DNA of 64,000 bases from Methanococcus vannielii SB (GCF_000017165.1 NC_009634.1:434001-498000), one strand, 5' to 3'. Counted from the stretch's first letter, positions 20,574-35,007 are shown. Notes: generated from the sequence alone by a model not told the origin. Numbers and translations are program-made.

Positions 20574-21521
20574 ATGCTATCTGATATTTTTGAAGGAATT
20601 GAAAGTGAAAATTACGGAAAAATTTCGAATTTTTCAAAAGTATTAAATGAAATTTATAAGAATAATGAAACTAAGTTTGATAGTAATTATTTGAACGATT
20701 TAGGTATTTTAAAAGTAGAAAATGAATTATTATTTTACGGTAAAAATTATCCTCTTTTTAAAATGCTTTACTATTTTAACGAAATTCCCCTTTTTAATTC
20801 TGAAAAAGATTCGATTATTTTTTTAAAAAATAATGGGTTTAATCCATCAAAAACTTACCTTGACCTTAAAAATTTTGAAAAAGATAAATTAAAAAATTTA
20901 ATTATGGGTTTTACTGAAAATCAAATTCCAATTGAATATAAACCATTTATAAAAAATTTAATTATTGGAAACGAATATTATCTTTCAAAATATAATATTG
21001 AATTAAAAGAATACATTTCAAATTTAAATTCAGCTTATAAATTAAAAGAATATGAAATAGTCAAAAATTGCGTGATAAACAAAGAATTGCCCGAAAAAAA
21101 CTTAATTTTAAAATATAAAAAGGATTTTTCAAAATCGATTAATCTATTTAATAAAAAATTAAATGAAGAAAAAATTCACGAATTTTCAATTGAATTTAAT
21201 AAAAATTCATTTGGCTGCCAATACATCTATTTAAAACAGTCTTTATGGGATAAAATTAAGGGTTGGTTTTTTGGAGAGATTAATGGAAAATATTTTCCTG
21301 CACTCGTAAATATTTCCTATAATCATAAAAAAATCGATTATTTAAAACCGTTTTTTATTTTGAATGATAATGACGATAAAATAAATGTTACTGCAAAAGT
21401 TCCAAAACTTTTATATTTAAAGTATGGCCTAACATTAAACCACATTAAATTAAATGGAAAGCATACCTACTTTGGAAAATGGAACATAAAAAATTTTAAA
21501 AAATTTTGTGGTAATTTATGA
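20574..21521 (+). CDS. Unidentified 315-residue protein at the start of the glycan locus
   Basis: Not recognised. It is soluble, Lys/Asn/Phe/Tyr-rich, with no signal peptide or membrane helix. The first half looks helical; residues about 200-300 look strand-rich (EFSIEFNKNSFGCQYIYLKQ, KINVTAKVPKLLYLKYGLTL). The start is clear from TCGGGGGAACTT before ATG. Its TGA overlaps the ATG of the next glycosyltransferase (ATGA), so the two are translationally coupled and probably serve the same pathway. Base composition is even poorer in GC than flanking housekeeping genes. A sugar-modifying or transferase role is guesswork. Confidence 0.8.
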   Translation: MLSDIFEGIESENYGKISNFSKVLNEIYKNNETKFDSNYLNDLGILKVENELLFYGKNYPLFKMLYYFNEIPLFNSEKDSIIFLKNNGFNPSKTYLDLKNFEKDKLKNLIMGFTENQIPIEYKPFIKNLIIGNEYYLSKYNIELKEYISNLNSAYKLKEYEIVKNCVINKELPEKNLILKYKKDFSKSINLFNKKLNEEKIHEFSIEFNKNSFGCQYIYLKQSLWDKIKGWFFGEINGKYFPALVNISYNHKKIDYLKPFFILNDNDDKINVTAKVPKLLYLKYGLTLNHIKLNGKHTYFGKWNIKNFKKFCGNL

Positions 21522-22379: not shown

Positions 22380-23344
22380 ATGATATGGCCAGATAATAAA
22401 AAATTTGCATTTACAATTATTGATGATACAGATAATGGAACAGTTAATAATTTAAAAAAATTATGAATTACTCTATGAAAATAAAATCAAAACTACTAAA
22501 ACCGTTTGGGTTTATGAACCAAGAGATAATTTTAAAGGCGATTGTTTACTAGATAAAAAATATTTTAATTTTATTAAAGATTTACAAAAAAAAGGTTTTG
22601 AAATTGCTTCTCATAGTGTTGGCTCAGGAAACTTTTTAAGAGATGAAATATTAGAAGGTTTTGAAATTTATGAAAATAAATTAGGTAAGCTTCCTAATAT
22701 TCATATCAATCATTCTCAAAATAAGGATAGTATTTATTGGGGTTATAAAAGACATATATTTCCTTTAAACATTATTTATAGGTTTATTTATAAATATAAT
22801 TTTTATGGTTGTAATAAAAAAAGTAATCATTTTTGGGGTGACTTTTGTAAAAAAAGATTAAATATGTAAGAAATTTAACTTTTGATGAAATTAACACTTT
22901 AAAGATTGACTCAAAAATGCCTTACATAATAAAGAATAAAAAATTTTCAAACTATTGGTTTTCATCTTCAAATGGTGCAAACGTTAGCGAATTTATTAAT
23001 TTGCTGAGTTATAAAAATATTGATAAGTTAGAAGAAGAAGGGGGACTATGTATTATTTACACGCATTTTGCACAAGGTTTTATTAAAAATGGTGAAATAA
23101 ATCAAGAATTTAAAGATAGGATTAAATATCTGTCTAAAAAGGACGGCTGGTTTGCCCCTGCAAGTGAAATTTTAGATTATCTGTTTTAGAACAACGGGAT
23201 GAGGAATTAAAAGTTAACTATGCTTATTTGTTAAAGTTGGATTTGATTTGGTTTTTTGAACAAATGAAAAAGAGGTTAGTTAAATTTAAAAACAATAGTT
23301 CAAGTTTCAAAAAAAAGAATAAAGTTATAAATGAAATTCAGTAG
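22380..23344 (+). pseudogene. Frameshifted polysaccharide deacetylase-like gene
   Basis: Three forward frames join into one protein: MIWPDNKKFAFTIIDDTDNG..., then TKTVWVYEP...FEIASHSVGSG (a deacetylase-like TIIDDTD and ASH pair)...HINHSQNKDSIYWG, then TFDEINTLKIDSKMPYIIKN...CIIYTHFAQGF...FAPASEILDYL, then EQRDEELKVNYAYLLKLDL ending at TAG 23342-23344. The breaks are near 22465, 22855 and 23187. Each lies in an A or T run and is mended by adding one base. The gene keeps a good Shine-Dalgarno (AAGGTGA) and looks freshly inactivated. The third segment alone forms a 90-residue open frame (22917-23189), not counted as a gene. Confidence 0.85.
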
Positions 23345-23381: not shown

Positions 23382-24233
23382 ATGGAATTTAAAAAAGTTT
23401 CAGTAATTATGTCAGTATATAATGAAAAAGAAGAGTATTTAAAAAAGGCTATTGAAAGTATCTTAACTCAAACTTACCAAAATTTTGAATTTATTATTAT
23501 ATTAGATAACCCATTAAATAATAATGCAAAAAATATTATCTTAAACTATAAAAAAAATGATAAACGAATTATTTTTTTAGAAAATACTGAAAATTTGGGG
23601 CTTGCAAAATCTTTAAATAGGGGTATTGAAATTGCAAATGGAGAATACATCGCAAGAATGGATTCTGATGATATCTCAGTAAAAAACCGATTCGAAAAAC
23701 AGGTTGAATATTTATTAAATATGGCTGAAGTGGACTTATTGTTCACTTGGACTTGTTTAATTGATGAAAACGATAAATATTCAGGTAAATTCAAACCTGA
23801 AAACAAATTTTGCAATAATCTAAAAAAATATTTTTTTGAAAAACACTTGTTTGCCCATCCAACGTTGATGACTAGATCAGAAGTACTAAAAAAGTTGAAA
23901 TATAGTTCAGATTTTAGGTATTCACAAGACTTAGACCTATGGTTTAGAAGTATAAATGAAAATTTAAATTTTAATATACTTGAAGAACCTCTTTTAAAAT
24001 ATCGAACAGTTACAGAAAGTTTGGCTTACCATATTTTTAAACAAAAAAGGGGATCAAAATATACATTCAAAGTATTTAATAAAAATATATCTAAATATTA
24101 TAATAATTATTATTTTGTTAAAAGATATATTTACTATTTATTAAAAGTAATTATTTTTAACTGCGTTCCTGAAAAAATTTTAGAATTATTATTAATATTA
24201 AAAAGAAGGTTAAATAAAATTTTTTCTAATTAA
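23382..24233 (+). CDS. Family 2 glycosyltransferase
   Basis: 283 residues. GT-A start (VSVIMSVYNEKEEYLKKAIE), then NLGLAKSLNRGIEIANGEYI and a clear DxD in RMDSDD (about 92-97). HPTLMTRSEVL and the DLDLWFRS segment are typical of GT2 enzymes that extend surface glycans. A basic, hydrophobic C-terminal stretch (about 240-283) suggests membrane association. Start ATG has the weak GGTGGTCGGA upstream. The 3' end overlaps the convergent FkbM gene by 24 bp, so it is the last plus-strand gene of the locus. Confidence 0.88.
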   Translation: MEFKKVSVIMSVYNEKEEYLKKAIESILTQTYQNFEFIIILDNPLNNNAKNIILNYKKNDKRIIFLENTENLGLAKSLNRGIEIANGEYIARMDSDDISVKNRFEKQVEYLLNMAEVDLLFTWTCLIDENDKYSGKFKPENKFCNNLKKYFFEKHLFAHPTLMTRSEVLKKLKYSSDFRYSQDLDLWFRSINENLNFNILEEPLLKYRTVTESLAYHIFKQKRGSKYTFKVFNKNISKYYNNYYFVKRYIYYLLKVIIFNCVPEKILELLLILKRRLNKIFSN

Positions 24234-24923
24234 TATTACTTTTTCCCCAGTTTTATATTCAACCCATTCAGATAAATTAATTGCACTATATAATGCTTTA
24301 GTACATCCTTCATTAATTCTATCGTGAAGCTCTATCACTATCACGTTTACTTTATTAATCCACTTTTTAGAATTTTTTGTAAATAGTTCTTTTTCTGAGC
24401 CTTCAATGTCTATTTTTAGTATATCGATTTTATCCCAATTCTGGGTATCCAATATATTATCTATAGTTGTCGATTTTATATCATATTCATCGGTGCTTAA
24501 AACTTCACTGACTTTAAAACCCCATTTTCCTGTTTTTCTATCTTCAACTTTTAAAAAAGCTTCTTTATACCATAATCCTAAGTTTAAACTTATGATTTGC
24601 TTTATTTTATTGGTATTTTTTACCAAAGTATTAAAATTACTCTTTTCAGGTTCAATTGCAATAATTTCTGCTTCAGGGTATTTTTCATGGAAATATATTG
24701 ATGAATATCCTGCGTACGCCCCTGCATCTATAATATATTTTGGTTTAAGTTTTACTGGCAAATTCAATTCTTTCTGAATAAAAATATTCAAAAAAACATT
24801 TAAATCAGTTGTATTTTTCCGGATAACTAGGTTAGGGTACTTAAGTTTATACCATATAATATACGGAACTGCAATTAATTTTAATTTAATATTTTTTGTA
24901 AATAAATTAATAATCTTACCCAT
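24210..24923 (-). CDS. FkbM-family SAM-dependent methyltransferase
   Basis: About 237 residues. The SAM-binding motif I is YIIDAGAYAGYSSIYF, motif II is IIAIEPEKSNFNTL, and the FkbM hallmark DILKIDIEGSEKELF lies near residue 170. Family members O-methylate hydroxyls on sugars and polyketides; here a sugar hydroxyl of the surface glycan is the likely target (inference from context). GGTGA is placed 5 nt before the ATG at 24923, so the GTG at 24932 is not used as start. It is the last gene of the long minus-strand operon. Confidence 0.85.
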   Translation of the reverse strand: MGKIINLFTKNIKLKLIAVPYIIWYKLKYPNLVIRKNTTDLNVFLNIFIQKELNLPVKLKPKYIIDAGAYAGYSSIYFHEKYPEAEIIAIEPEKSNFNTLVKNTNKIKQIISLNLGLWYKEAFLKVEDRKTGKWGFKVSEVLSTDEYDIKSTTIDNILDTQNWDKIDILKIDIEGSEKELFTKNSKKWINKVNVIVIELHDRINEGCTKALYSAINLSEWVEYKTGEKVILIRKNFI

Positions 24924-24932
24924 TAATTTCAC

Positions 24933-25667
24933 CTACTTCTTTATGCAATAACATTCATAACCCAATGTCCATTCTTTTTCATTATCCAGTGAATCTAAAA
25001 AATATAGAATGAAGGGGATTAAAAATTTACAAAATAATAAACTAACGACATAAAATGGAAATAATGCAATTTTTTCAATTAACATTTTTCTTTGAGAATA
25101 TATATAAGATAGCATTATGGATATTTCTTTAGACAATTGCCAAAAAAGGCCACCTCTTGGTTTTATATAAATTATATTAAAACCTGCCTTTTCAAACATG
25201 GTTTTTAAGCCGTAATTTGTAAAATTAAAATAGTTGTAAGGTTTACCATGGACCCCATATAATAATGGAGCCGTTAAATACAGTTCCCCATTCTCTTTAA
25301 GGATTCTGTAAAATTCACAAATTACTTTTTGAGGATTTTCAACATGTTCCAATACCTGAGTGTTAATAATTACATCATAACTATTATCATTTTTTGGTAT
25401 CTTTTCTAAATTACATATGAAACTGTGCATGCTTTTTGAAGATTTATCAAATATATCTTCAAAATCAGTAGATTCATACATGGTGTGTCCGAAATATTTT
25501 TTATATGGGCAGCTCCCTGCGCCTGCATCCAAAACTACTTTATTTGAACCGATATTTTTGGAAATATCGGATATAAATTTGTTAATAGAACCTTTTTCCG
25601 GATCAATTATTTTTCGAATATAAAAGGGTATTTTTGAATCTATTTTTTTAAAAATCGTTGATATCAT
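24933..25667 (-). CDS. Class I SAM-dependent methyltransferase
   Basis: 244 residues. Motif I is KVVLDAGAGSCPYKKYFG (about 38-55), an acidic STDFEDIF follows, and the methyltransferase type 11 core is YDVIINTQVLEHVENPQKVI with the later ILKENGELYLTAP. A hydrophobic C-terminal stretch (about 195-228) could anchor it to the membrane, as in methyltransferases acting on lipid-linked sugars. The acceptor is unknown. It begins 1 nt after the aldolase stop and ends 9 nt before the FkbM start. Confidence 0.8.
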   Translation of the reverse strand: MISTIFKKIDSKIPFYIRKIIDPEKGSINKFISDISKNIGSNKVVLDAGAGSCPYKKYFGHTMYESTDFEDIFDKSSKSMHSFICNLEKIPKNDNSYDVIINTQVLEHVENPQKVICEFYRILKENGELYLTAPLLYGVHGKPYNYFNFTNYGLKTMFEKAGFNIIYIKPRGGLFWQLSKEISIMLSYIYSQRKMLIEKIALFPFYVVSLLFCKFLIPFILYFLDSLDNEKEWTLGYECYCIKK

Positions 25668-26480
25668 TTATTTTCCCCTAATTTCATTTACATTATTTTT
25701 TAATGTTGTTTGATTATTTAATAAATCTTCTTTGGTTAACGTACTCAAATAATCCATATATTTATTTAATTTTTCAACTTCCAATTTTAAATCGATTTTA
25801 TCCCTAATATCATCAAAAGTCTTCGCATTCCCATGAAAATCTCTAGATAATATAACTCTTGTTGAGTTTAATCGGTAATGTTCAGATAGAATTAGTTTTG
25901 GGTCTAAAGGTAAATCTTCTTTTAACCTTCCAACCCCTCCGAACCCAAATGTAATACCTTTTGTAACTATTTTTTTGGATAAATATTCAACAATTCCACC
26001 ACTTAAAAGTTCAAACATGAAATTTAAACCCATACCTAAGTGTAAATCATTAAGCCCCACATGTATTTCGTCAATCCCTTCAATGTCCAAAATTTCGTCA
26101 ATTCTAACGAGGGCTTGGGGGGTTTCTAATAGTAGATTAACTAAAGCCCTATTATTTACGTACGAAACAAATTCTTCAACTTCTTTAGCGGTTTTAAACA
26201 TGGGTAACATTACGATATCTGCACCTACATTAATTACATTATCAATTTCAGTCTTAGAATTATCATTTAATGGATTAATTCTAACTAATAATTTTGATTT
26301 TTTGAGTATTTTTTTTACTTCCGTAACATCTTCAATTGAGTGTTCTGAAATCAATGTATTCAAATGTCCCTGTCTTTCTTTTTTTCCCAAAATCTCTAAA
26401 TCTACCATAATTATATCTATACCGGATTCTTCGGCATATTTTGCAAATTTTGGATCCTTTGTTATCAGTATCGTTTCCAT
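25668..26480 (-). CDS. HpcH/HpaI-family aldolase
   Basis: About 270 residues. Key residues of class II HpcH/HpaI aldolases are present: Arg67 (LLVRINP), metal ligands Glu119 (LLLETPQAL) and Asp145 (GLNDLHLGMG). These enzymes cleave or form 4-hydroxy-2-oxo acids from pyruvate and an aldehyde; some relatives act on acyl-CoA (CitE type). Its place directly after a transaminase and a decarboxylase suggests synthesis of an unusual building block, not catabolism. A TTG at 26504 is possible, but AGGG lies 6 nt before the ATG at 26480. Confidence 0.8.
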   Translation of the reverse strand: METILITKDPKFAKYAEESGIDIIMVDLEILGKKERQGHLNTLISEHSIEDVTEVKKILKKSKLLVRINPLNDNSKTEIDNVINVGADIVMLPMFKTAKEVEEFVSYVNNRALVNLLLETPQALVRIDEILDIEGIDEIHVGLNDLHLGMGLNFMFELLSGGIVEYLSKKIVTKGITFGFGGVGRLKEDLPLDPKLILSEHYRLNSTRVILSRDFHGNAKTFDDIRDKIDLKLEVEKLNKYMDYLSTLTKEDLLNNQTTLKNNVNEIRGK

Positions 26481-26504
26481 ATTAAACCCTAATGTATCGG
26501 ACAA

Positions 26505-27416
26505 TTAATATATTGGTGTTAAAAATTGATCGTAATTTTTTAACTTTCCTCTAACCATTTTAAAATAAAATTCACGGAGTTGTTCTGTAAGTTTACCTTT
26601 TGATTTATTTCCCACAGCATATCTATCAATAGTTAATACGGAGGTAATTTCCATTGCTGTCCCGCATAAAAATGCTTCATCACATATATAAAGTTCAGTT
26701 CTATCAATATCTCTTTCAACCACATCAATGTTCAAATCGCTTTTTGCGATATCAATAATATTCTGTCTAGTAATACTTTCAAGTATTGAAGCCGTTACCG
26801 GAGGAGTAATTAATTTTTCGTCACGTATAATAAAAATACACGAACCAGGTCCTTCAGAAACTTTTTTCTGATTATTTAAAAAAATTGCTGTGTCATAACC
26901 ATTTTTTACTGCTTCTAAATGTCCCAATCTACTATTCATATAATTGGCCCCAACTTTTACCCGAGGGGATAATGAATTATCATTAATCCGTTCAAAAGAA
27001 CTTACGCAACAATCTATTCCAATTTTATCATAGGGCCTTCCTTTAGGAATTGGGGCTATAAACATTTCTAAAGGCCCTTTTGAACTCCAACTTCCAAAAC
27101 CATCTAAAAAAAGAGTCTGTCTAACAGTGATATCTTCTTTAAAGTTATTAGCCCTAACAATATCTAAAAAACTATTTTTTAAAAAATTAAAATCATATTT
27201 TAAATCGAAGTCCATGATTTTAGCGGAATTAATAAGTCTATTTATATGTTCGGTTAATTTGAATGCATATAACTGTTCTTTTTCTTCATTCCAGTAACAT
27301 CGAATTCCTTCAAAAACATTTACGCCAAATTGGCTTGTAGGGGCTAAAACATTTATTTTGGCCTGACTTACAGGAATTATTTCTTCTTTAAACCAGATTA
27401 ATCTTTCTGTTTCCAT
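26505..27416 (-). CDS. Class IV (branched-chain type) aminotransferase
   Basis: 303 residues. The fold-type IV pattern is clear: GVNVFEGIRCYW near 31-42, PLP-lysine K154 in RVKVGANYMNSRLG, SEGPGSCIFIIRDEKLITPP, and the late CGTAMEITSV glycine loop. The family includes IlvE and D-amino acid and 4-amino-4-deoxychorismate enzymes. A housekeeping IlvE would not be expected inside a glycan operon. It may therefore aminate the 2-oxo acid made by the adjacent aldolase (inference). Start ATG follows GGGGCAT. Confidence 0.82.
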   Translation of the reverse strand: METERLIWFKEEIIPVSQAKINVLAPTSQFGVNVFEGIRCYWNEEKEQLYAFKLTEHINRLINSAKIMDFDLKYDFNFLKNSFLDIVRANNFKEDITVRQTLFLDGFGSWSSKGPLEMFIAPIPKGRPYDKIGIDCCVSSFERINDNSLSPRVKVGANYMNSRLGHLEAVKNGYDTAIFLNNQKKVSEGPGSCIFIIRDEKLITPPVTASILESITRQNIIDIAKSDLNIDVVERDIDRTELYICDEAFLCGTAMEITSVLTIDRYAVGNKSKGKLTEQLREFYFKMVRGKLKNYDQFLTPIY

Positions 27417-27431
27417 GCCAATGCCCCTATT

Positions 27432-28661
27432 TTACTCGAACATATATGTTTTAAAAATATCTTCAAAAGTCTCTTTATGTTTAACAATTTTAAACTTATC
27501 CCCATTATAATCAATTATTGGAACGTTTGGACAGATGAATGGTGGTTTAAAAACGAATGAATAAGAACCTACATTGTCAAAAGCAATATAATCTCCGATA
27601 TTCAAAATTCCGCAGTAGTTTTTAAATAAATAATCTGCTTCAATACAAGTATATCCCGAAATGTCAACATTATTAATAAATTTTCCATTTTTAAATTCAG
27701 AATATACATTAATTGGTAAATTTATGCTTAAACCGAATAATCCCATATTAAATTTACTACCCGTAGTCATTGCAATTTTTTTACCCCTAATATTTTTAAT
27801 TTCAACAATTTTAGCAATAAACTTCATAGTATCTGCTACAAGTGCCGTGCCCGGTTCCAAAATTAATTTCGGCTTTCTATTTTCAGGTATATTTTTAAAA
27901 TATTCTTTAAATCTTGATGCGATGATACTTGCATAATCGGAATACGATGGAACATTGCAATTGAATTGCTTTGCCAAAAAGTCGTTTACTTTTCCAAAAT
28001 AACCTCCACCAATATCTACAAATTCAGGGATATTCTCTTTAAACAACAAATCTAAAATATTTATTAAATTATCAACTCTTTTTGAGTATGAATCTAAATT
28101 TCTATCTGGAAAATGACAATGAATTCCTTTGATGTATAAATTATCGATTTTTTTAAGTTCTTTGAATTTTTCAATAAATTCTGCATCCCTTACATCAAAA
28201 CCAAAACGGGATACTGTAGAACCCATCTCAAAATTACACCTTATGCCAACGGATAAAATTTTACCTGGATTGGAATTTGCAATTTCTCTAATTAAGTCTA
28301 ATTCTCGGTATGAATCAACATTTACAATGCTTCCTTTGAGTAAAAAATACTCCAAATGTTCTTTTGTTTTGAGGGGCCCGTTTACAATAATGTTGGAGGG
28401 GATTACCCCAATCTTTATTGCTAAATCATACTCCATTTTAGAAACTACTTCTGCAAAGCCACCTTTTTTGTTAACAATTGAACATAAATGTGGCAGGTAA
28501 TTCGTTTTATATGAATATGCAATTACCGTATTAGGGTATATTTTCTGAAATTCTCCTAGAAATTCATCATAATTTTTAACGAATTTATTTGAATCAAGTA
28601 AATAAAATGAATCACCAAAATCTTCATTTAACTTATTTAAAACGTTCCAATTAAGTTCCAT
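27432..28661 (-). CDS. Fold-type III PLP decarboxylase (LysA/ODC-like)
   Basis: 409 residues. PLP lysine K52 is in AYSYKTNY. The family GGG motif is VDIGGGYFG, the phosphate-binding EPG motif is LILEPGTALVADT, and the opposite subunit contributes Cys (YTCIEADYLF) and Tyr (VGSYSFVFKPPF). EPGT replaces the EPGR common in DAP and ornithine decarboxylases, so the substrate probably differs. It should decarboxylate an alpha-amino acid to an amine, stereospecifically. With the aldolase and transaminase it forms a plausible three-step route. It starts 2 bp from the stop of the dehydratase gene. Confidence 0.82.
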   Translation of the reverse strand: MELNWNVLNKLNEDFGDSFYLLDSNKFVKNYDEFLGEFQKIYPNTVIAYSYKTNYLPHLCSIVNKKGGFAEVVSKMEYDLAIKIGVIPSNIIVNGPLKTKEHLEYFLLKGSIVNVDSYRELDLIREIANSNPGKILSVGIRCNFEMGSTVSRFGFDVRDAEFIEKFKELKKIDNLYIKGIHCHFPDRNLDSYSKRVDNLINILDLLFKENIPEFVDIGGGYFGKVNDFLAKQFNCNVPSYSDYASIIASRFKEYFKNIPENRKPKLILEPGTALVADTMKFIAKIVEIKNIRGKKIAMTTGSKFNMGLFGLSINLPINVYSEFKNGKFINNVDISGYTCIEADYLFKNYCGILNIGDYIAFDNVGSYSFVFKPPFICPNVPIIDYNGDKFKIVKHKETFEDIFKTYMFE

Positions 28662-28663
28662 TT

Positions 28664-30100
28664 TTACACCATATCGAATTCTTTATAAGTAGGCACTAAT
28701 TTTTTCAATATCGGTTTTACTTCATCAAATGTTTTTTCCCCACTAACGTTAACTAATTGGGTTACTGTATCGATAAATTCTTTATGGTCAAATTCTTCAT
28801 CTCTTTTTAAAATATAAATTTTGTCGTTTTTTGTTGCCAACGTTTCTTCAATTTTTGTTAACGGTTCTTCATATAGTTTTTCCCCAGGTCTTAATCCGAT
28901 AAATTCTAATTTAACATCTTTATCTAATTCCAAACCTGCAATTTTTATCATTAGTGTTGCAAGGTCAATAATCTTAATTGGTTCCCCCATATCTAAAACA
29001 AATATTTCATCATTAGTTCCTTGAACCCAACACTGTAATATCAAATAAACAGCTTCATCTATACTCATGAAATACCGAATAATATCTTTATGAGTTATTG
29101 TTATACGGCCTTCCCTAATTTGTTTTTGAAATGTAGGTATAACACTTCCATTACTATTTATTACATTTCCAAATCTAACGGCTAAAAAGGAAGTTTTTGA
29201 ATTGTCTAGTGATGCATAGTAATGCATCATTTTTTCAGTTATTCTTTTTGTAACGCCCATAATATTTGTCGGATTTACAGCCTTATCTGAAGATATTAAT
29301 ATAAAATTTTTTACTTGGTGTTTGATTGCAATTTCATATAAATTTTTTGAACCCATTACATTATTTTTGATAGCTTCATAGTAATTTAATTCCATTAGTG
29401 GAACGTGTTTATATGCTGCAGCATTAATAATTACGTCTGGTTTTTCACTACCAATTATTTGATTCATGCGGACTTCATCTTGAATATTTCCAATATAGTA
29501 TGAAAAATTATTTAATGAAACCTTATCATTTGTCTTAATAATTTTATTTATCTTGTCTTCTAGATAAAACATTCCATTTTCTGACCAGTCGACCATGATT
29601 AATTTTTTAGGGCATAAACTTGCAATTTGTTGACATAATTTTGAGCCAATAGATCCAGCAGCACCAAAGACAATAAATGTTTTACCCTCAACCTTTTTTG
29701 AGATATTTTCAAACATTTTTTTTGTAACCTTTTTTCCAATAATGTCTTCAACAGAAATTTCCCTTAATTGGGTTAGATTAACCCTATTTAATAATATTTC
29801 AGAATATCTTGGTATTAATTTAATTTTAACTGGAAACTTAATACATTCAAGATAAATTTTTTTAAGTAATTCACCTTCAGTAGCAGGCATTGCAATAAAA
29901 ACTATTTTTATACCATATTTTGGTATAATTTGTTTTAAATTTTCAATTTTACCGAGGATTGGGAAACTTTTTATTGATTCAGTTACGTTATCATCTATAA
30001 ATCCCAAAATATTTATTGGATATGAACCAGCTATAAATTCATTCAAAAGTTCTTTTCCAGCGCCCCCTGCACCAATGATTATGGCTTTTTCATTGTCCAT
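28664..30100 (-). CDS. PglF/CapD-like UDP-GlcNAc 4,6-dehydratase
   Basis: About 478 residues. A CoA-binding-like Rossmann domain (AIIIGAGGAGKELL) is followed by an extended SDR domain with GAAGSIGSKL, the NAAAYKHVPLME motif and SSDKAVNPTNIMGVTKR, in which Lys takes the place of the usual Tyr neighbour in this dehydratase class. The four membrane helices of full-length PglF are absent, so this is a soluble form. It should make UDP-4-keto-6-deoxy-GlcNAc or a similar sugar. A longer frame starts at 30136, but GGGTGT precedes the ATG at 30100. That ATG overlaps the glycosyltransferase end by 11 bp. Confidence 0.85.
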   Translation of the reverse strand: MDNEKAIIIGAGGAGKELLNEFIAGSYPINILGFIDDNVTESIKSFPILGKIENLKQIIPKYGIKIVFIAMPATEGELLKKIYLECIKFPVKIKLIPRYSEILLNRVNLTQLREISVEDIIGKKVTKKMFENISKKVEGKTFIVFGAAGSIGSKLCQQIASLCPKKLIMVDWSENGMFYLEDKINKIIKTNDKVSLNNFSYYIGNIQDEVRMNQIIGSEKPDVIINAAAYKHVPLMELNYYEAIKNNVMGSKNLYEIAIKHQVKNFILISSDKAVNPTNIMGVTKRITEKMMHYYASLDNSKTSFLAVRFGNVINSNGSVIPTFQKQIREGRITITHKDIIRYFMSIDEAVYLILQCWVQGTNDEIFVLDMGEPIKIIDLATLMIKIAGLELDKDVKLEFIGLRPGEKLYEEPLTKIEETLATKNDKIYILKRDEEFDHKEFIDTVTQLVNVSGEKTFDEVKPILKKLVPTYKEFDMV

Positions 30101-31202
30101 TTTTACACCCGAGTACTTCTTTGTAAATTTTTTCAACTTTTTCCATTTCTAGATAATAATTATAATTTTTGTTTATATGTTTAATATTATTTTGACCCAT
30201 TTCAATTCTTTTTCCGGTATCATCTATTAACTTTAATAATGAATTTGCTAACTCTTCGGGATTTTTTGATTCAAATAAATATCCATTTACATCTGGTTTA
30301 ACCCATTCTGAATTATCGCCAAAATCAGTAATAACTACAGGTAGCCCGCATGCCATCGCTTCTGCAGTACTACATGAAAGTCCAGAATCAGACAATGCGG
30401 TTGATACATAAATATCCGAAGAAGATAGATACATCGGCATTTGTTCATGCGGAATATTGCCTAAAAAACTAATATTATCGGAAATTCCCAGATTTTTTGT
30501 TAAATTAATTAACTCATTTTTTTTAGAACCTTCTCCAATTATTAAAAATTGAACTTTTTTATTTCTATCTATTATGATTTTTGCAGCATTTATCAATGTT
30601 TCGATATCATAAATAGGCCTTAAATTCCTTGTTGAGATAATTAAAACCCTATCTTCGTTTTGAACTTTTAAAAAGTTACTTTTTTTGTTTTTTGAAAACA
30701 CTTTTATGTCTATTCCAAATCTTATCATTTTGATTTTATGCGTATCTTTACAATATTTCTTTATTTCATCAACCATATTTTCCCCGTCACAAATAATATA
30801 TTTTGATTTAGAGAAAATTTGTGGCAATATTGCACGATATATCGGATTTTTTTTAGGTTGGATTAAAACATCCGTACCCCAAGGTGTTAATATATAATGT
30901 TTACCACTAAACATACCAAATAATCCAAATTGGTATACGTCATGGACATGTATTATGTCACAATTTATCTTTTTTAATGTAGGGGCATATCTTAAATGGG
31001 CAAATATATAATAGAACAGCCAAAGTAAAAAAGCATTTGGAACATTTTTATTTTGAATTATTTCTATATTGAGATTCTCTATTTCTTTTAAAACAGGCCT
31101 CATTGAAAATAGAGTTATGTCGTAACAATCTTTTTCTAAAAAGTATTTAATGTATTTATATGTATGAGTACTTGATCCATCGGCTAAATAAAGTAATTTC
31201 AT
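30090..31202 (-). CDS. Family 4 glycosyltransferase
   Basis: 370 residues with the two-domain GT-B fold. The N-terminal domain has DIIHVHDVYQFGLFG and PWGTDVLIQPKK. The C-terminal domain has NLRPIYDIETLINA, then FLIIGEGSKKNEL and the family signature SALSDSGLSCSTAEAMACGLP (EX7E-type nucleotide-sugar site, with the first Glu replaced by Asp). It is a retaining transferase acting in the cytoplasm. Start ATG follows GGGA. It is 18 bp downstream of the UDP-GlcA epimerase gene. Confidence 0.9.
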   Translation of the reverse strand: MKLLYLADGSSTHTYKYIKYFLEKDCYDITLFSMRPVLKEIENLNIEIIQNKNVPNAFLLWLFYYIFAHLRYAPTLKKINCDIIHVHDVYQFGLFGMFSGKHYILTPWGTDVLIQPKKNPIYRAILPQIFSKSKYIICDGENMVDEIKKYCKDTHKIKMIRFGIDIKVFSKNKKSNFLKVQNEDRVLIISTRNLRPIYDIETLINAAKIIIDRNKKVQFLIIGEGSKKNELINLTKNLGISDNISFLGNIPHEQMPMYLSSSDIYVSTALSDSGLSCSTAEAMACGLPVVITDFGDNSEWVKPDVNGYLFESKNPEELANSLLKLIDDTGKRIEMGQNNIKHINKNYNYYLEMEKVEKIYKEVLGCKNGQ

Positions 31203-31220: not shown

Positions 31221-32180
31221 TTAATACCTATTTTGAATATACCATTTAACAAACCTTTTTATTCCTTCTTCTATGCATATATTAGGATAATATTTTAAAT
31301 TTTCTTTTGATTTTGTTAAGTCTGCCATTGTAATTAAAACATCCCCTTCTTGCACGGGTAAGTAATTTTTAATGGCTTTTTTCCCAGTTTCTTTTTCTAT
31401 TAAGGAAATCATGTATTCTAATTCAATAGGGTTATCCCCGCCAAGATTAAATATTTCATAATCTATTTTTTTACTTAAAAAAACTGCTGATTTTATCCCT
31501 TCAACTATATCTGAAATATATGTAAAATCCCTTTTCATTTTTCCGTAATTATAAACATCAATTGGTTTTTCTTCCAATATATTTTTAGTGAATTTCCAGT
31601 AAGCCATATCGGGCCTTCCAAATTCACCATAAACCGTGAAAAATCTTAAACCAATCATTTCTATCCCATATAAATGATTATAAACATGTGCAATTAATTC
31701 ATTATATTTTTTAGTTGCAGCATATAAACTAACCGGTTTATCGACATTATCTGATTCCAAAAAAGGTGTTTTTTCGTTTCCGCCATATACTGATGAAGAT
31801 GATGCAAAAATAACTCTTTTAATACCGTATTTTTTAGCAAGTTCAAAAATATTTAATGTTCCTAAATTATTACTGTATTCATAAACATGCGGATTTTCTA
31901 AAGAGTACCTAACTCCAGCCTGTGCTGCAAGATGGACTATTAAATCAGGTTTTTCTAAATTGAAAATTTCATCTAATTCTTCGTAATTTATAATATCTTC
32001 ATCAAAAAACTTAAAATTTTTAAATCCTTTTAAAATGTCAAGCCTTTTTTCTTTTAATTTTACATCATAGTATGGATTTAAATTATCAATCCCAATTATT
32101 TGAATTTCAGTATTTTTTAAAATATTTTCAGAAAAACTAAACCCTATAAACCCAGCTGCACCAGTAACTAAAATTTTCAT
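31221..32180 (-). CDS. UDP-glucuronate 4-epimerase-like NAD-dependent epimerase
   Basis: 319 residues. GAAGFIGFSFSE binds NAD; the catalytic dyad is Tyr153/Lys157 in SLYAATKKYN, with SSSSVYG upstream. The IDNLNPYYDVKLKEKRL segment is typical of UDP-glucuronate 4-epimerases. It would convert UDP-GlcA to UDP-GalA, using the product of the adjacent dehydrogenase. Its ATG overlaps the ugd TGA by 4 bp (ATGA), strong evidence that the two act in sequence. Confidence 0.88.
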   Translation of the reverse strand: MKILVTGAAGFIGFSFSENILKNTEIQIIGIDNLNPYYDVKLKEKRLDILKGFKNFKFFDEDIINYEELDEIFNLEKPDLIVHLAAQAGVRYSLENPHVYEYSNNLGTLNIFELAKKYGIKRVIFASSSSVYGGNEKTPFLESDNVDKPVSLYAATKKYNELIAHVYNHLYGIEMIGLRFFTVYGEFGRPDMAYWKFTKNILEEKPIDVYNYGKMKRDFTYISDIVEGIKSAVFLSKKIDYEIFNLGGDNPIELEYMISLIEKETGKKAIKNYLPVQEGDVLITMADLTKSKENLKYYPNICIEEGIKRFVKWYIQNRY

Positions 32181-33499
32181 CTTAATCCAACTCCAATATA
32201 CTCAAACTCGATTTTTTTAATTTTTTCATTATCAATTATATTTCTGCCATCAAATATGACTTTTTCATTAACCATATTAAAAATATTTTCAAAGTCAATA
32301 GTATTAAATTTAGTATCTTCAACAGCAAAAATTATTCCATCAACCCCGGTAACTGCTTCTACCAAACTATCTAAAATATATAAATTATATCCATAAAATG
32401 CTTTTGATTTATCTAATGTATACATATTATATGCATTTTCTCTTGCTCTTTTAACATTATCAAAACCTTTTATAATTGCATCTTCTTTTAGTAGCAAATC
32501 AATTAGTTTTATACTAGCACTTTCCCTTAAATCATCAGTATCGGGTTTGAAAGCTAAACCTAAAACTGCAAAAGTTTTACCTGAAATATCCCCATAATAA
32601 TTTTTAATTTTTTCAAAAAACCATTTTACTTGGTTTTCATTTACGCTATCTGTTGCAGTCATAAGTTTTGGATCGATACCTTTAGATTCAAACTGTTTTG
32701 TTAAAGACTTTACATCTTTTGGAAAACATGACCCTCCATATCCAATTCCCGCATTTAAAAATTTTTTCCCAATTCTATCATCAAGTCCCATTGCATAAGA
32801 TACGGTTTTTATGTCCGCATTTGTTTTGTCTGCTAATTTAGAAAGCTCATTTATAAATGAAATTTTTGTTGCTAAAAATGCATTTGAAGCATATTTTATC
32901 ATTTCTGCAGTTTCGTAATTTGTTAATATCAAGGGTATATTTTTTTCAATAAAATATTGATAAATGTATTTCAAAATTTCCTTTGAAGATAAATCATTTT
33001 CATCAAAACCTAAAATTATTCTTTCAGGATTTAAAAAATCTTTTAAAGCCATTCCTTCCCTTAAAAATTCTGGATTTGATATGATTTCAATATTATATCC
33101 ATTTAAACGTTCTTTTAAAAGCTGGTTTGTCCCAATTGGAACAGTTGATTTTACAACTAAATATTTTTTACCCGAAATATGTTTTTTTAAGTTATCAACT
33201 GCTGAAAAAATATATTTTAAATCAGTATTTCCATTATTGTCTTGTGGCGTTCCAACACACAAAAAAATAACTTCAGAATCTTTTATTTTTTCATAGGATG
33301 TTGTAAATTCTAAATTTTTTCCTGTGTGTTTTTTTAAAAGTTCTTCCAAACCTTCTTCATATAATGGACAAATTCCATTATTTAACATTTTAACTTTTGA
33401 ATCATCAATATCTATCCCTATAACTTTAAAACCAAAATTTGCTAAGCCCACTGCTTGAATTAATCCAACATAACCTGTCCCAATTACTGAAATTTTCAT
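32177..33499 (-). CDS. ugd: UDP-glucose 6-dehydrogenase
   Basis: 440 residues. N-terminal NAD domain GTGYVGLIQAVGLA; catalytic Cys258 in GIGYGGSCFPKD; Lys in the KYASNAFLATKISF helix; C-terminal UDP-binding domain with LGLAFKPDTDDLRES. It oxidises UDP-glucose (supplied by galU in the same cluster) to UDP-glucuronate with two NAD+. UDP-ManNAc dehydrogenases share the fold, but the PEFLREGMALKDFLNPERI region fits the UDP-glucose type. Start ATG follows GGTGAC. Confidence 0.9.
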   Translation of the reverse strand: MKISVIGTGYVGLIQAVGLANFGFKVIGIDIDDSKVKMLNNGICPLYEEGLEELLKKHTGKNLEFTTSYEKIKDSEVIFLCVGTPQDNNGNTDLKYIFSAVDNLKKHISGKKYLVVKSTVPIGTNQLLKERLNGYNIEIISNPEFLREGMALKDFLNPERIILGFDENDLSSKEILKYIYQYFIEKNIPLILTNYETAEMIKYASNAFLATKISFINELSKLADKTNADIKTVSYAMGLDDRIGKKFLNAGIGYGGSCFPKDVKSLTKQFESKGIDPKLMTATDSVNENQVKWFFEKIKNYYGDISGKTFAVLGLAFKPDTDDLRESASIKLIDLLLKEDAIIKGFDNVKRARENAYNMYTLDKSKAFYGYNLYILDSLVEAVTGVDGIIFAVEDTKFNTIDFENIFNMVNEKVIFDGRNIIDNEKIKKIEFEYIGVGLR

Positions 33500-33504
33500 T
33501 TAAG

Positions 33505-35007
33505 TCACCAGAATTTAAAAGTTTTTAATTCAGATATCTTAATAATATTTAGTAAAATTATGCTCAAAAAATACACAATTAAATAGACTATGCCGAATAA
33601 TAAAATTAATATATATTCATTAAAACTCATTCCTTTTATAAATATTAAAGGAATAAATGCCAATATTGAGGAAAAAATACATAATATAAATTTTTTAATT
33701 GGAAATTTATAATCTAAAAATTTATTTAAGTAATTAACTTGTAAAATTTGAATTAAAATATAACTTAATGTGGTAGTAAATGCTGCACCACTCGTTCCAA
33801 ATTTTGGAATTAAAATTAAATTAAAAATTAAATTAAAAATTGCCCCAATATATAATATTTTAGTTGAAAGGTATGGTTTTCCAATTCCATTAAAGACATT
33901 AAATACAATATTATTCATTGATAAAAAGACTATTCCAAAACTTAAAATTGACATTGGAAGAGCTGCAGTTAAATAATTTTCATTGAAAAATAGATTTATT
34001 AAAACAGTTGGAAAATATGATAAAAGTACTGAAAAAGGAATTGAAATTATAAATGAATATGTTAATACCTTTTTTAAACCCTCTGAAAGATTCTTTTTTT
34101 CACCTTTTTCCCACATTTCGGTACTCATTGGAAGTATTACAGAACATATTGAAGATGCAAAATAACTTAATACTAAAACTGTCGGCATTGCAACGTTCCT
34201 ATAATCTGCAACCGAATCAAGTCCTGTAAAGTATGTCAAACATATTGAATCAAGGTATCCCATTATGATAAACCCGGCACTTCCAAACATTATCGGCATA
34301 CTGTATGTAAAAATATCTTTTAAAAGTTTTTTTGAAAAAGAAAACTTTTCAATAAAAAATTCTGGAAATATCTTTTTTAAAAAAATTGTCCCATAGATTA
34401 GAATCATTAAAATTGGAGCAATTGTATATGCTAAGGGCGGAGAATAAACGCCAAATCCAAAGTAAATAAAAATAAAAGATAAAACTAAAACACTTGATAT
34501 ATTTAAAAAAGTATATGTACTATATATTTTTTGACTTTGAAATCCAAGTAATGAGTTAACAGTTAAGTTTTTTATCCCATCAAATATATAAAATCCAAAA
34601 ACCATTATTATAAATACCGTAGAAATAGCTTCAAGATTTCCAAACTGGCCTTGACTATTTATATAGTATTTTATAATTAAAGGGGACATTGAATACATTA
34701 AAAATGCAATTAAAACTGCCATTCCTGTTTGAATTATTAAAACGTATAATAGTGTTGATTTTATTAAATCATACCTATTTTGAACTAAAAATTTTGGAAT
34801 AAAGTATATTACTGCATTACCTAATCCTAAACCTCTAAAAATTGCAATCATGCTGATTAAATCTAAAATTGCATAGAAAAGGCCTACTTCAACTTTTGAA
34901 AGTGAATTTGCATATAATATTCTTACAAAATAACCAATAGGGGCTGCTAACATTAAGAATAAAAAATTCCATGCAGCACCCTTAATCATTCTATCTTTAT
35001 AACTCAA
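33505..35007 (-). CDS. Oligosaccharide flippase (MOP/PST family)
   Basis: 500 residues, 12-14 predicted membrane helices throughout, no soluble domain. The pattern (GAAWNFLFLMLAAPIGYFVR at the N-terminus, GLGLGNAVIYFIP, a mid-protein GSAGFIIMGYLDS) is that of Wzx-like MOP exporters. It would flip the lipid-linked glycan to the outer face for transfer to archaellin or S-layer protein. The TTG start follows GGGGAT. It stands 5 bp before ugd, in the same operon. Confidence 0.88.
   Translation of the reverse strand: MSYKDRMIKGAAWNFLFLMLAAPIGYFVRILYANSLSKVEVGLFYAILDLISMIAIFRGLGLGNAVIYFIPKFLVQNRYDLIKSTLLYVLIIQTGMAVLIAFLMYSMSPLIIKYYINSQGQFGNLEAISTVFIIMVFGFYIFDGIKNLTVNSLLGFQSQKIYSTYTFLNISSVLVLSFIFIYFGFGVYSPPLAYTIAPILMILIYGTIFLKKIFPEFFIEKFSFSKKLLKDIFTYSMPIMFGSAGFIIMGYLDSICLTYFTGLDSVADYRNVAMPTVLVLSYFASSICSVILPMSTEMWEKGEKKNLSEGLKKVLTYSFIISIPFSVLLSYFPTVLINLFFNENYLTAALPMSILSFGIVFLSMNNIVFNVFNGIGKPYLSTKILYIGAIFNLIFNLILIPKFGTSGAAFTTTLSYILIQILQVNYLNKFLDYKFPIKKFILCIFSSILAFIPLIFIKGMSFNEYILILLFGIVYLIVYFLSIILLNIIKISELKTFKFW

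Follow-up and report, generated by a model that had tools for sequence, protein, structure and literature searches.

The window analysed here is a 64,000-nucleotide stretch of the Methanococcus vannielii SB genome (GCF_000017165.1, NC_009634.1:434001-498000), which is a single contig of 1,720,048 bases. It contains three adjacent minus-strand genes encoding an aldolase of the HpcH/HpaI superfamily (ALD), a fold-type IV transaminase of branched-chain type I (BCAT) and a fold-type III pyridoxal phosphate (PLP)-dependent decarboxylase (DEC). A preliminary description, made from sequence alone, had singled out this trio as a possible amine-decoration pathway inside a surface-glycan operon. All three genes are intact open reading frames (ORFs) matching PF03328, PF01063 and PF02784, respectively, and the intergenic gaps measure 15 and 24 bp, as described (Table 1). 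An alternative TTG start would extend ALD to position 26504. DEC lies 2 bp from an upstream gene for a CapD-like dehydratase, and ALD lies 0 bp from a downstream methyltransferase gene. The GC content of the trio (28–31%) resembles the window average of 29%, so composition is uninformative on the time of acquisition.

A scan of a genome collection with an ALD alignment alone yielded 80 bacterial loci. DEC occurred in 21 of these and BCAT in 20 of the 21, while the other 59 contained neither DEC nor a trio-type BCAT (Fisher p=6e-18, an indicative value given that the loci are related to varying degrees). Among the DEC loci, L043 alone has no BCAT, and its sequence stops shortly beyond DEC. Trio loci span Pseudomonadota, Bacillota, Bacteroidota and Synergistota, and their usual gene order is ALD–DEC–PGT–BCAT–GT2, with PGT denoting the initiating sugar-phosphate transferase (PF02397). 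Cultured strains with the trio include Colwellia sp. C1TZA3 and [Clostridium] aerotolerans DSM 5434. The trio of Colwellia (Pseudomonadota) has the gene order of the window, with 58% identity in DEC and 65% in BCAT, and the ALD tree (95/86) and the DEC tree (99/97) each place it as the partner of the window. ALD and DEC form a single protein in four loci (L015, L019, L022 and L028), followed by BCAT and then alanine dehydrogenase; at the contig end of L052, the C-terminal sequence of ALD runs into the N terminus of DEC. Apart from the four fused trios, every trio locus on a long enough contig carries sugar-transferase, glycosyltransferase, flippase or polymerase genes. Cross-phylum linkage and fusions together support the conclusion that the three enzymes function as a unit, encoded for the most part in surface-glycan loci. 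The preliminary description would have been contradicted by homologues lying mostly apart and in central metabolism; we found them together and in part fused, and the host genome encodes a separate housekeeping IlvE-like transaminase (33% identity) and a LysA-like decarboxylase (31%) elsewhere.

The trio module is rare. ALD has no match in the 35 other genomes of the phylum, and DEC has no strong match in 296 other archaea. Two DEC-led searches (392 and 345 genomes) added one cellular genome to the ALD set, with a full trio in the ALD–DEC–PGT–BCAT–GT2 order, and a third (295 genomes) recovered only a genome that was already known. Nothing was found in an early scan of genome contigs with DEC alone or in a viral scan that used only ALD as the query.

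We next consider the proteins that accompany ALD. In the tree of the PGTs encoded nearest to ALD, sequences group by partner type. The 14 from trio loci, which come from four phyla, all fall in one clade (99/93), and partner labels change 8 times over the whole tree, compared with 29.9 times in shuffles. A control tree of the CapD dehydratase shows no such tracking of module type (10 changes versus 11.3 in shuffles). PGT and BCAT form a single protein in L045, and in Fimbriimonadaceae one protein combines ALD with a CapD-like UDP-sugar 4,6-dehydratase (L021:10001-11893 and L026:10001-11893). Partner labels are also strongly clustered in the ALD tree (18 changes versus 44.6 in shuffles). Among ALDs without DEC and BCAT, a D-2-hydroxyacid dehydrogenase adjoins in 23 loci and never occurs with DEC (p=2e-4), Halobacillus alkaliphilus being one species with this type of locus; other sister ALDs lie near asparagine synthase, mostly in Gram-negative loci. 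L050 combines an ALD of the trio clade with a partner and a PGT that are both of the HADH type. Pairing with a dehydrogenase or asparagine synthase is what a 2-oxo acid product of ALD would predict, and the simplest reading is that this acid would have alternative fates, being reduced, aminated and decarboxylated, or amidated. In bacteria, the trio product may sit on the residue transferred by the PGT, or the block may merely move as a unit. A search with positive controls found no PGT in the archaeal genome, so attachment in the archaeon must differ.

The predicted ALD model (pLDDT 93) adopts the HpaI/YfaU fold, of the HpaI/pyruvate-kinase type. Its top Foldseek match is YfaU (2vws, E 1.5e-10), and comparison with AbHpaI (7eth) gave a VIA Z of 21.1 over 190 residues at 1.8 Å; pyruvate kinases score as well as HpaI-type matches, and the assignment holds at superfamily level only. 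Residues R67, E119 and D145, the Arg/Glu/Asp site noted in the preliminary description, are invariant in 18 members and align with E. coli YfaU and GarL, in which the Arg serves pyruvate and the Glu/Asp pair the metal. ALD therefore has its fold and its pyruvate-metal site in common with the HpaI/YfaU/GarL class II pyruvate aldolases, from which it differs by a C-terminal EHxRL..ILSR motif of its own and by the features weighed below.

BCAT scores above the NCBIfam cut-offs for branched-chain transaminases (PRK06606, 298 bits versus 279; TIGR01122, 268 versus 246) and is 53–65% identical to the BCATs of other trio loci. Its PLP lysine, also noted earlier, lies in a K154-x-G-x-N-Y motif that is invariant across trio members. 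DEC keeps the PLP lysine and the catalytic Cys, His and Tyr. Alignment of the 21 trio decarboxylases revealed a subfamily signature, YSYKTN / EPG[ST] / TC[IV]E. The EPGT in place of EPGR that had drawn attention in the window is thus real, and since EPG[ST] is subfamily-wide (21/21), we ruled out that it is an inactivating oddity. In all 21, the residues that bind the distal part of the substrate in diaminopimelate decarboxylase (DAPDC) and ornithine decarboxylase (ODC) are gone: EPG[ST] replaces EPGR, the Arg of the MRP motif is missing, and Ile/Val replaces Glu/Asp after the Cys. In the DAPDC of T. maritima, the ligands of the distal carboxylate and amine are Arg249, Arg285 and Glu315, which we equated by motif with these three positions; substrates with hydrophobic side chains required a hydrophobic residue at 315 (PMC8277567). 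Without residues that bind a distal charge, the expected DEC substrate is an amino acid whose side chain is neutral. Such a substrate would fit a branched-chain-type transaminase acting before DEC.

DEC passes no curated NCBIfam cut-off, the closest profiles being FslC (133 bits) and LysA (127.5 bits), and its model matches BtrK, DAPDC and FslC (7kh2 is a close fold match). DEC does not qualify as the diaminopimelate decarboxylase LysA (TIGR01048, 127.5 bits versus a cut-off of 297.9), with both distal Arg residues and the Glu gone, and by profile score it falls short of the N-citrylornithine decarboxylase FslC/FigC (NF041039, 133 versus 500). The exosortase-A-associated family TIGR03099 comprises type III PLP decarboxylases tied to surface polysaccharide, in which it resembles DEC, but DEC scores only 78 bits against its cut-off of 478. 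The clade-2 alanine-racemase-fold decarboxylases (FslC/FigC, SbnH, MccE and BtrK) would have a specialised-metabolite role in common with DEC; in FigC the acid that binds the distal amine is Met, and both FigC and DEC have a hydrophobic residue in place of the acid next to the catalytic Cys (PMC7857480). DEC differs from these enzymes in its scores below all curated cut-offs, in its EPG[ST] without Arg, and in its partners, which are an aldolase and BCAT rather than a NIS synthetase, microcin genes or an acyl carrier protein.

DEC relatives were also observed outside trio loci. One of them, on a phage contig that also has terminase- and portal-like ORFs, bears the YSYKTN/EPGT/CIE signature (L094:308-1471, plus strand; 37% identity) and stands alone, without aldolase or transaminase. 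A Parabacteroides glycan locus (L096:3466-9067, minus strand) encodes a PGT, an epimerase, a more distant DEC relative (~33%) and a PylC-like ATP-grasp enzyme, with an adjoining PrpD-family gene; it is a possible ligase-bearing cousin of the trio module. Plasmid matches to DEC (~25–29%) were set aside: the enterobacterial ones look like a microcin-C-type operon, consistent with MccE (PMC7857480), and not like the trio module. Those at L005:3812-8704 are annotated 'GNAT family N-acetyltransferase' and belong to an operon with ThiF, MFS and methyltransferase genes that is similar to the one for microcin C, E. coli ATCC 25922 included.

Profile matches for the genes around the trio bear out the operon given in the preliminary description, with two methyltransferases on one side and a dehydratase, a glycosyltransferase, an epimerase, Ugd and a flippase on the other (Table 1).

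Table 1. The trio and neighbouring genes in the M. vannielii window
Feature	Position	Strand	Evidence and remarks
Aldolase ALD (HpcH/HpaI superfamily)	25668..26480	-	270 aa from ATG; PF03328 52.5 bits vs cut-off 25
BCAT, fold-type IV transaminase, branched-chain type I	26505..27416	-	303 aa; PF01063 152 bits
DEC, fold-type III PLP decarboxylase, putative neutral-substrate subfamily	27432..28661	-	409 aa; PF02784 90 bits
CapD/PglF-like UDP-sugar 4,6-dehydratase	28664..30136	-	PF02719 346 bits; same operon, upstream of DEC
SAM methyltransferase	24933..25667	-	PF08241/PF13489; directly downstream of ALD
FkbM-family methyltransferase	24210..24932	-	TIGR01444 84 bits
GT4-type glycosyltransferase	30090..31202	-	PF00534
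NAD-dependent nucleotide-sugar epimerase/dehydratase	31221..32180	-	PF01370 177 bits
UDP-sugar 6-dehydrogenase (Ugd-like)	32177..33499	-	TIGR03026 430 bits
Polysaccharide / lipid-linked glycan flippase	33505..35007	-	PF01943 102 bits; conserved right flank of variable cassette
RecJ-related protein	20574..21521	+	NF040701 E 3e-12; left flank

Both flanks of this region are kept in two congeners, with GlmU, GlmM and the RecJ-like gene on the left and the flippase and GalE-like genes on the right, mostly at 72–91% identity. Each of the genus's 7 genomes has the flippase (75% identity in congener G003, 53% in G004). Between the flanks, the two congeners carry other glycan genes and no homologue of ALD, BCAT, DEC or CapD. 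Conserved flanks around differing middle genes form the pattern of a variable cassette, in which the M. vannielii trio would be cargo of a surface-polysaccharide locus with exchangeable content. The preliminary description had suggested looking for the trio beside ugd or flippase genes. The trio does recur in glycan loci, several of them with Ugd; however, a Ugd homologue (77%) also occupies the same locus of G004, a genome without the trio, and in bacteria it is the PGT that tracks the module. The corresponding glycan locus of G003 contains a TupA-like ATP-grasp gene (L108:7448-8062, minus strand). In the window, positions 22380-23189 (plus strand), between two glycosyltransferase genes, hold fragments in different frames that resemble a polysaccharide-deacetylase gene and look decayed; a 90-aa ORF of this region has no Pfam match.

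Taking these observations together, the explanation we favour, with a little better than even confidence, is that the three genes constitute a dedicated and horizontally mobile pathway making a small amine as a surface-glycan building block. ALD would add a pyruvate enolate to a carbonyl acceptor to give a 2-oxo acid of the 4-hydroxy-2-oxo type. BCAT would convert this acid by transamination into an amino acid with a neutral side chain, and decarboxylation by DEC would then yield an amine, probably a 3-amino-alcohol. Candidate products are 3-aminopropanol, if the acceptor is formaldehyde, and 4-amino-1,2-butanediol, if it is glycolaldehyde. The amine would finally be incorporated into the glycan that the neighbouring genes produce. 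The reaction order, the acceptor and the entry of the amine into the glycan are inferred.

Several observations weigh against this explanation. ALD is far from characterised aldolases (HpaI profile, 29 bits; ~20% identity to HpaI, YfaU and GarL). The HpaI acceptor loop is deleted, a 17-residue insertion with a conserved KxxRQ splits the DxEH motif, and the position of the catalytic His, occupied by a His in most members, has Gln in L003 and Asn in L008. Owing to the loop deletion and the insertion, the acceptor cannot be read off the sequence, and, with the His not strictly conserved, even the aldol reaction itself is putative. The four fused ALD–DEC trios, from rumen Clostridia, sit among housekeeping genes outside glycan loci, where the product may have a use other than in glycan; the alanine dehydrogenase beside them may be a coincidence, as the four loci are close relatives. 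The nearest decarboxylases by profile (FslC) and by fold (BtrK) use conjugated amino acids, and no attachment enzyme for the amine was found in trio loci.

A close functional parallel is the HS:2 capsule pathway of C. jejuni (Cj1436, Cj1437, Cj1438C and Cj1435), in which capsule-locus enzymes make serinol-P by transamination and ethanolamine-P by decarboxylation for glucuronate amidation (PMC11800397). As proposed for the trio, a decarboxylase and a transaminase in a surface-polysaccharide locus supply a small amine. The C. jejuni route starts from serine-P and DHAP without an aldolase, whereas the trio has one, and C. jejuni has an identified amidoligase and phosphatase, neither of which was found in trio loci. 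The trio most likely works like these amine-supply enzymes, by a different route.

This parallel bears on the original form of the proposal, an amide bond between the free amine and a uronic acid supplied by Ugd and the epimerase, which we now consider rather unlikely. Ugd is encoded in the trio operon of the window, several trio loci elsewhere have it too, and there are precedents in the serinol-glucuronamide of C. jejuni (PMC11800397) and the threonine on ManNAcA in the M. voltae glycan (PMC2952790). The presence of Ugd at the same locus of the trio-less congener, however, argues against a specific link. Pfam profiling of neighbours found no ATP-grasp, AsnB or other amide-forming ligase recurring in trio loci, although such a domain may escape Pfam; a FemAB-like gene occurs in one trio locus only (L076). 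An amidoligase could hide in a larger protein, as in C. jejuni, where it is a domain of a larger protein missed by ordinary annotation. The protein at 20574-21521, put forward as the amide-forming candidate, did not hold up: it is RecJ-related and present in 29 of 41 genomes across Methanococcales, including genomes without the trio. Of the amine-decoration pathway first described, the functional unit in glycan loci is supported, and a neutral DEC substrate fits the residues; the uronamide, for which no amide-forming enzyme recurs, is not supported.

Somewhat less probable still is that ALD acts on a nucleotide keto-sugar, so that in bacteria the trio builds an aminoethyl-type branch on the sugar transferred by the PGT, and the alternative partners reduce (2-hydroxyacid dehydrogenase) or amidate (AsnB) this branch. 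The split of PGTs by module type, the PGT–BCAT and ALD–CapD fusions, the dehydratase 2 bp from DEC in the window, the mixed locus L050 and the conjugated substrates of the nearest decarboxylases would all fit. On the other hand, CapD does not track module type, the archaeal genome is without any PGT, the fused trios lie away from sugar genes, and the PGT co-phylogeny could reflect operon co-transfer only. We give very little weight to a chemistry resembling that of carboxylate siderophores, with ALD citrate-synthase-like (as SbnG) and DEC a decarboxylase of citryl-amino acids (as SbnH/FslC). The citrate synthase SbnG (4tv5) is among the Foldseek matches of ALD, and FslC is both the best NCBIfam profile for DEC and a close fold match; yet the score is far under the cut-off, a branched-chain transaminase would have no evident role, and the setting is one of flippase, polymerase and PGT glycan loci. 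No NIS synthetase was found among the Pfam-profiled neighbours, a genome-wide search not having been made. Equally improbable is ordinary amino-acid metabolism, or a chance adjacency of unrelated genes. BCAT does exceed the branched-chain transaminase cut-offs, and the fused trios do adjoin housekeeping genes, alanine dehydrogenase included, but the cross-phylum linkage, the fusions, the separate housekeeping IlvE and LysA, the absence of ALD from all other genomes of the phylum and the lack of a strong DEC match in other archaea speak against it.

The favoured explanation, a pathway supplying a small amine to surface glycans, extends to a broader idea that we hold only tentatively. The pyruvate aldolase family may represent an undescribed C–C-bond-forming route to glycan substituents, whereby one 2-oxo acid becomes an amine, a hydroxy acid or an amide; in bacteria, the product would be located on the first residue, the one that the PGT transfers, and the methanogen would have acquired the amine-forming variant. 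Searches of the open-licence literature gave nothing relevant on the trio, the M. vannielii glycan or 3-aminopropanol in polysaccharides. If the pathway is as we propose, an aldolase-based route would join the few known ways to make non-sugar amines for surface glycans. This route would be shared by an archaeon with bacteria of several phyla, including Clostridia from rumen and gut as well as Prevotella. Its sequence signature would predict an amine (or hydroxy-acid) substituent from the genome alone, and the trio would provide defined enzymes whose product can be sought in the glycan.

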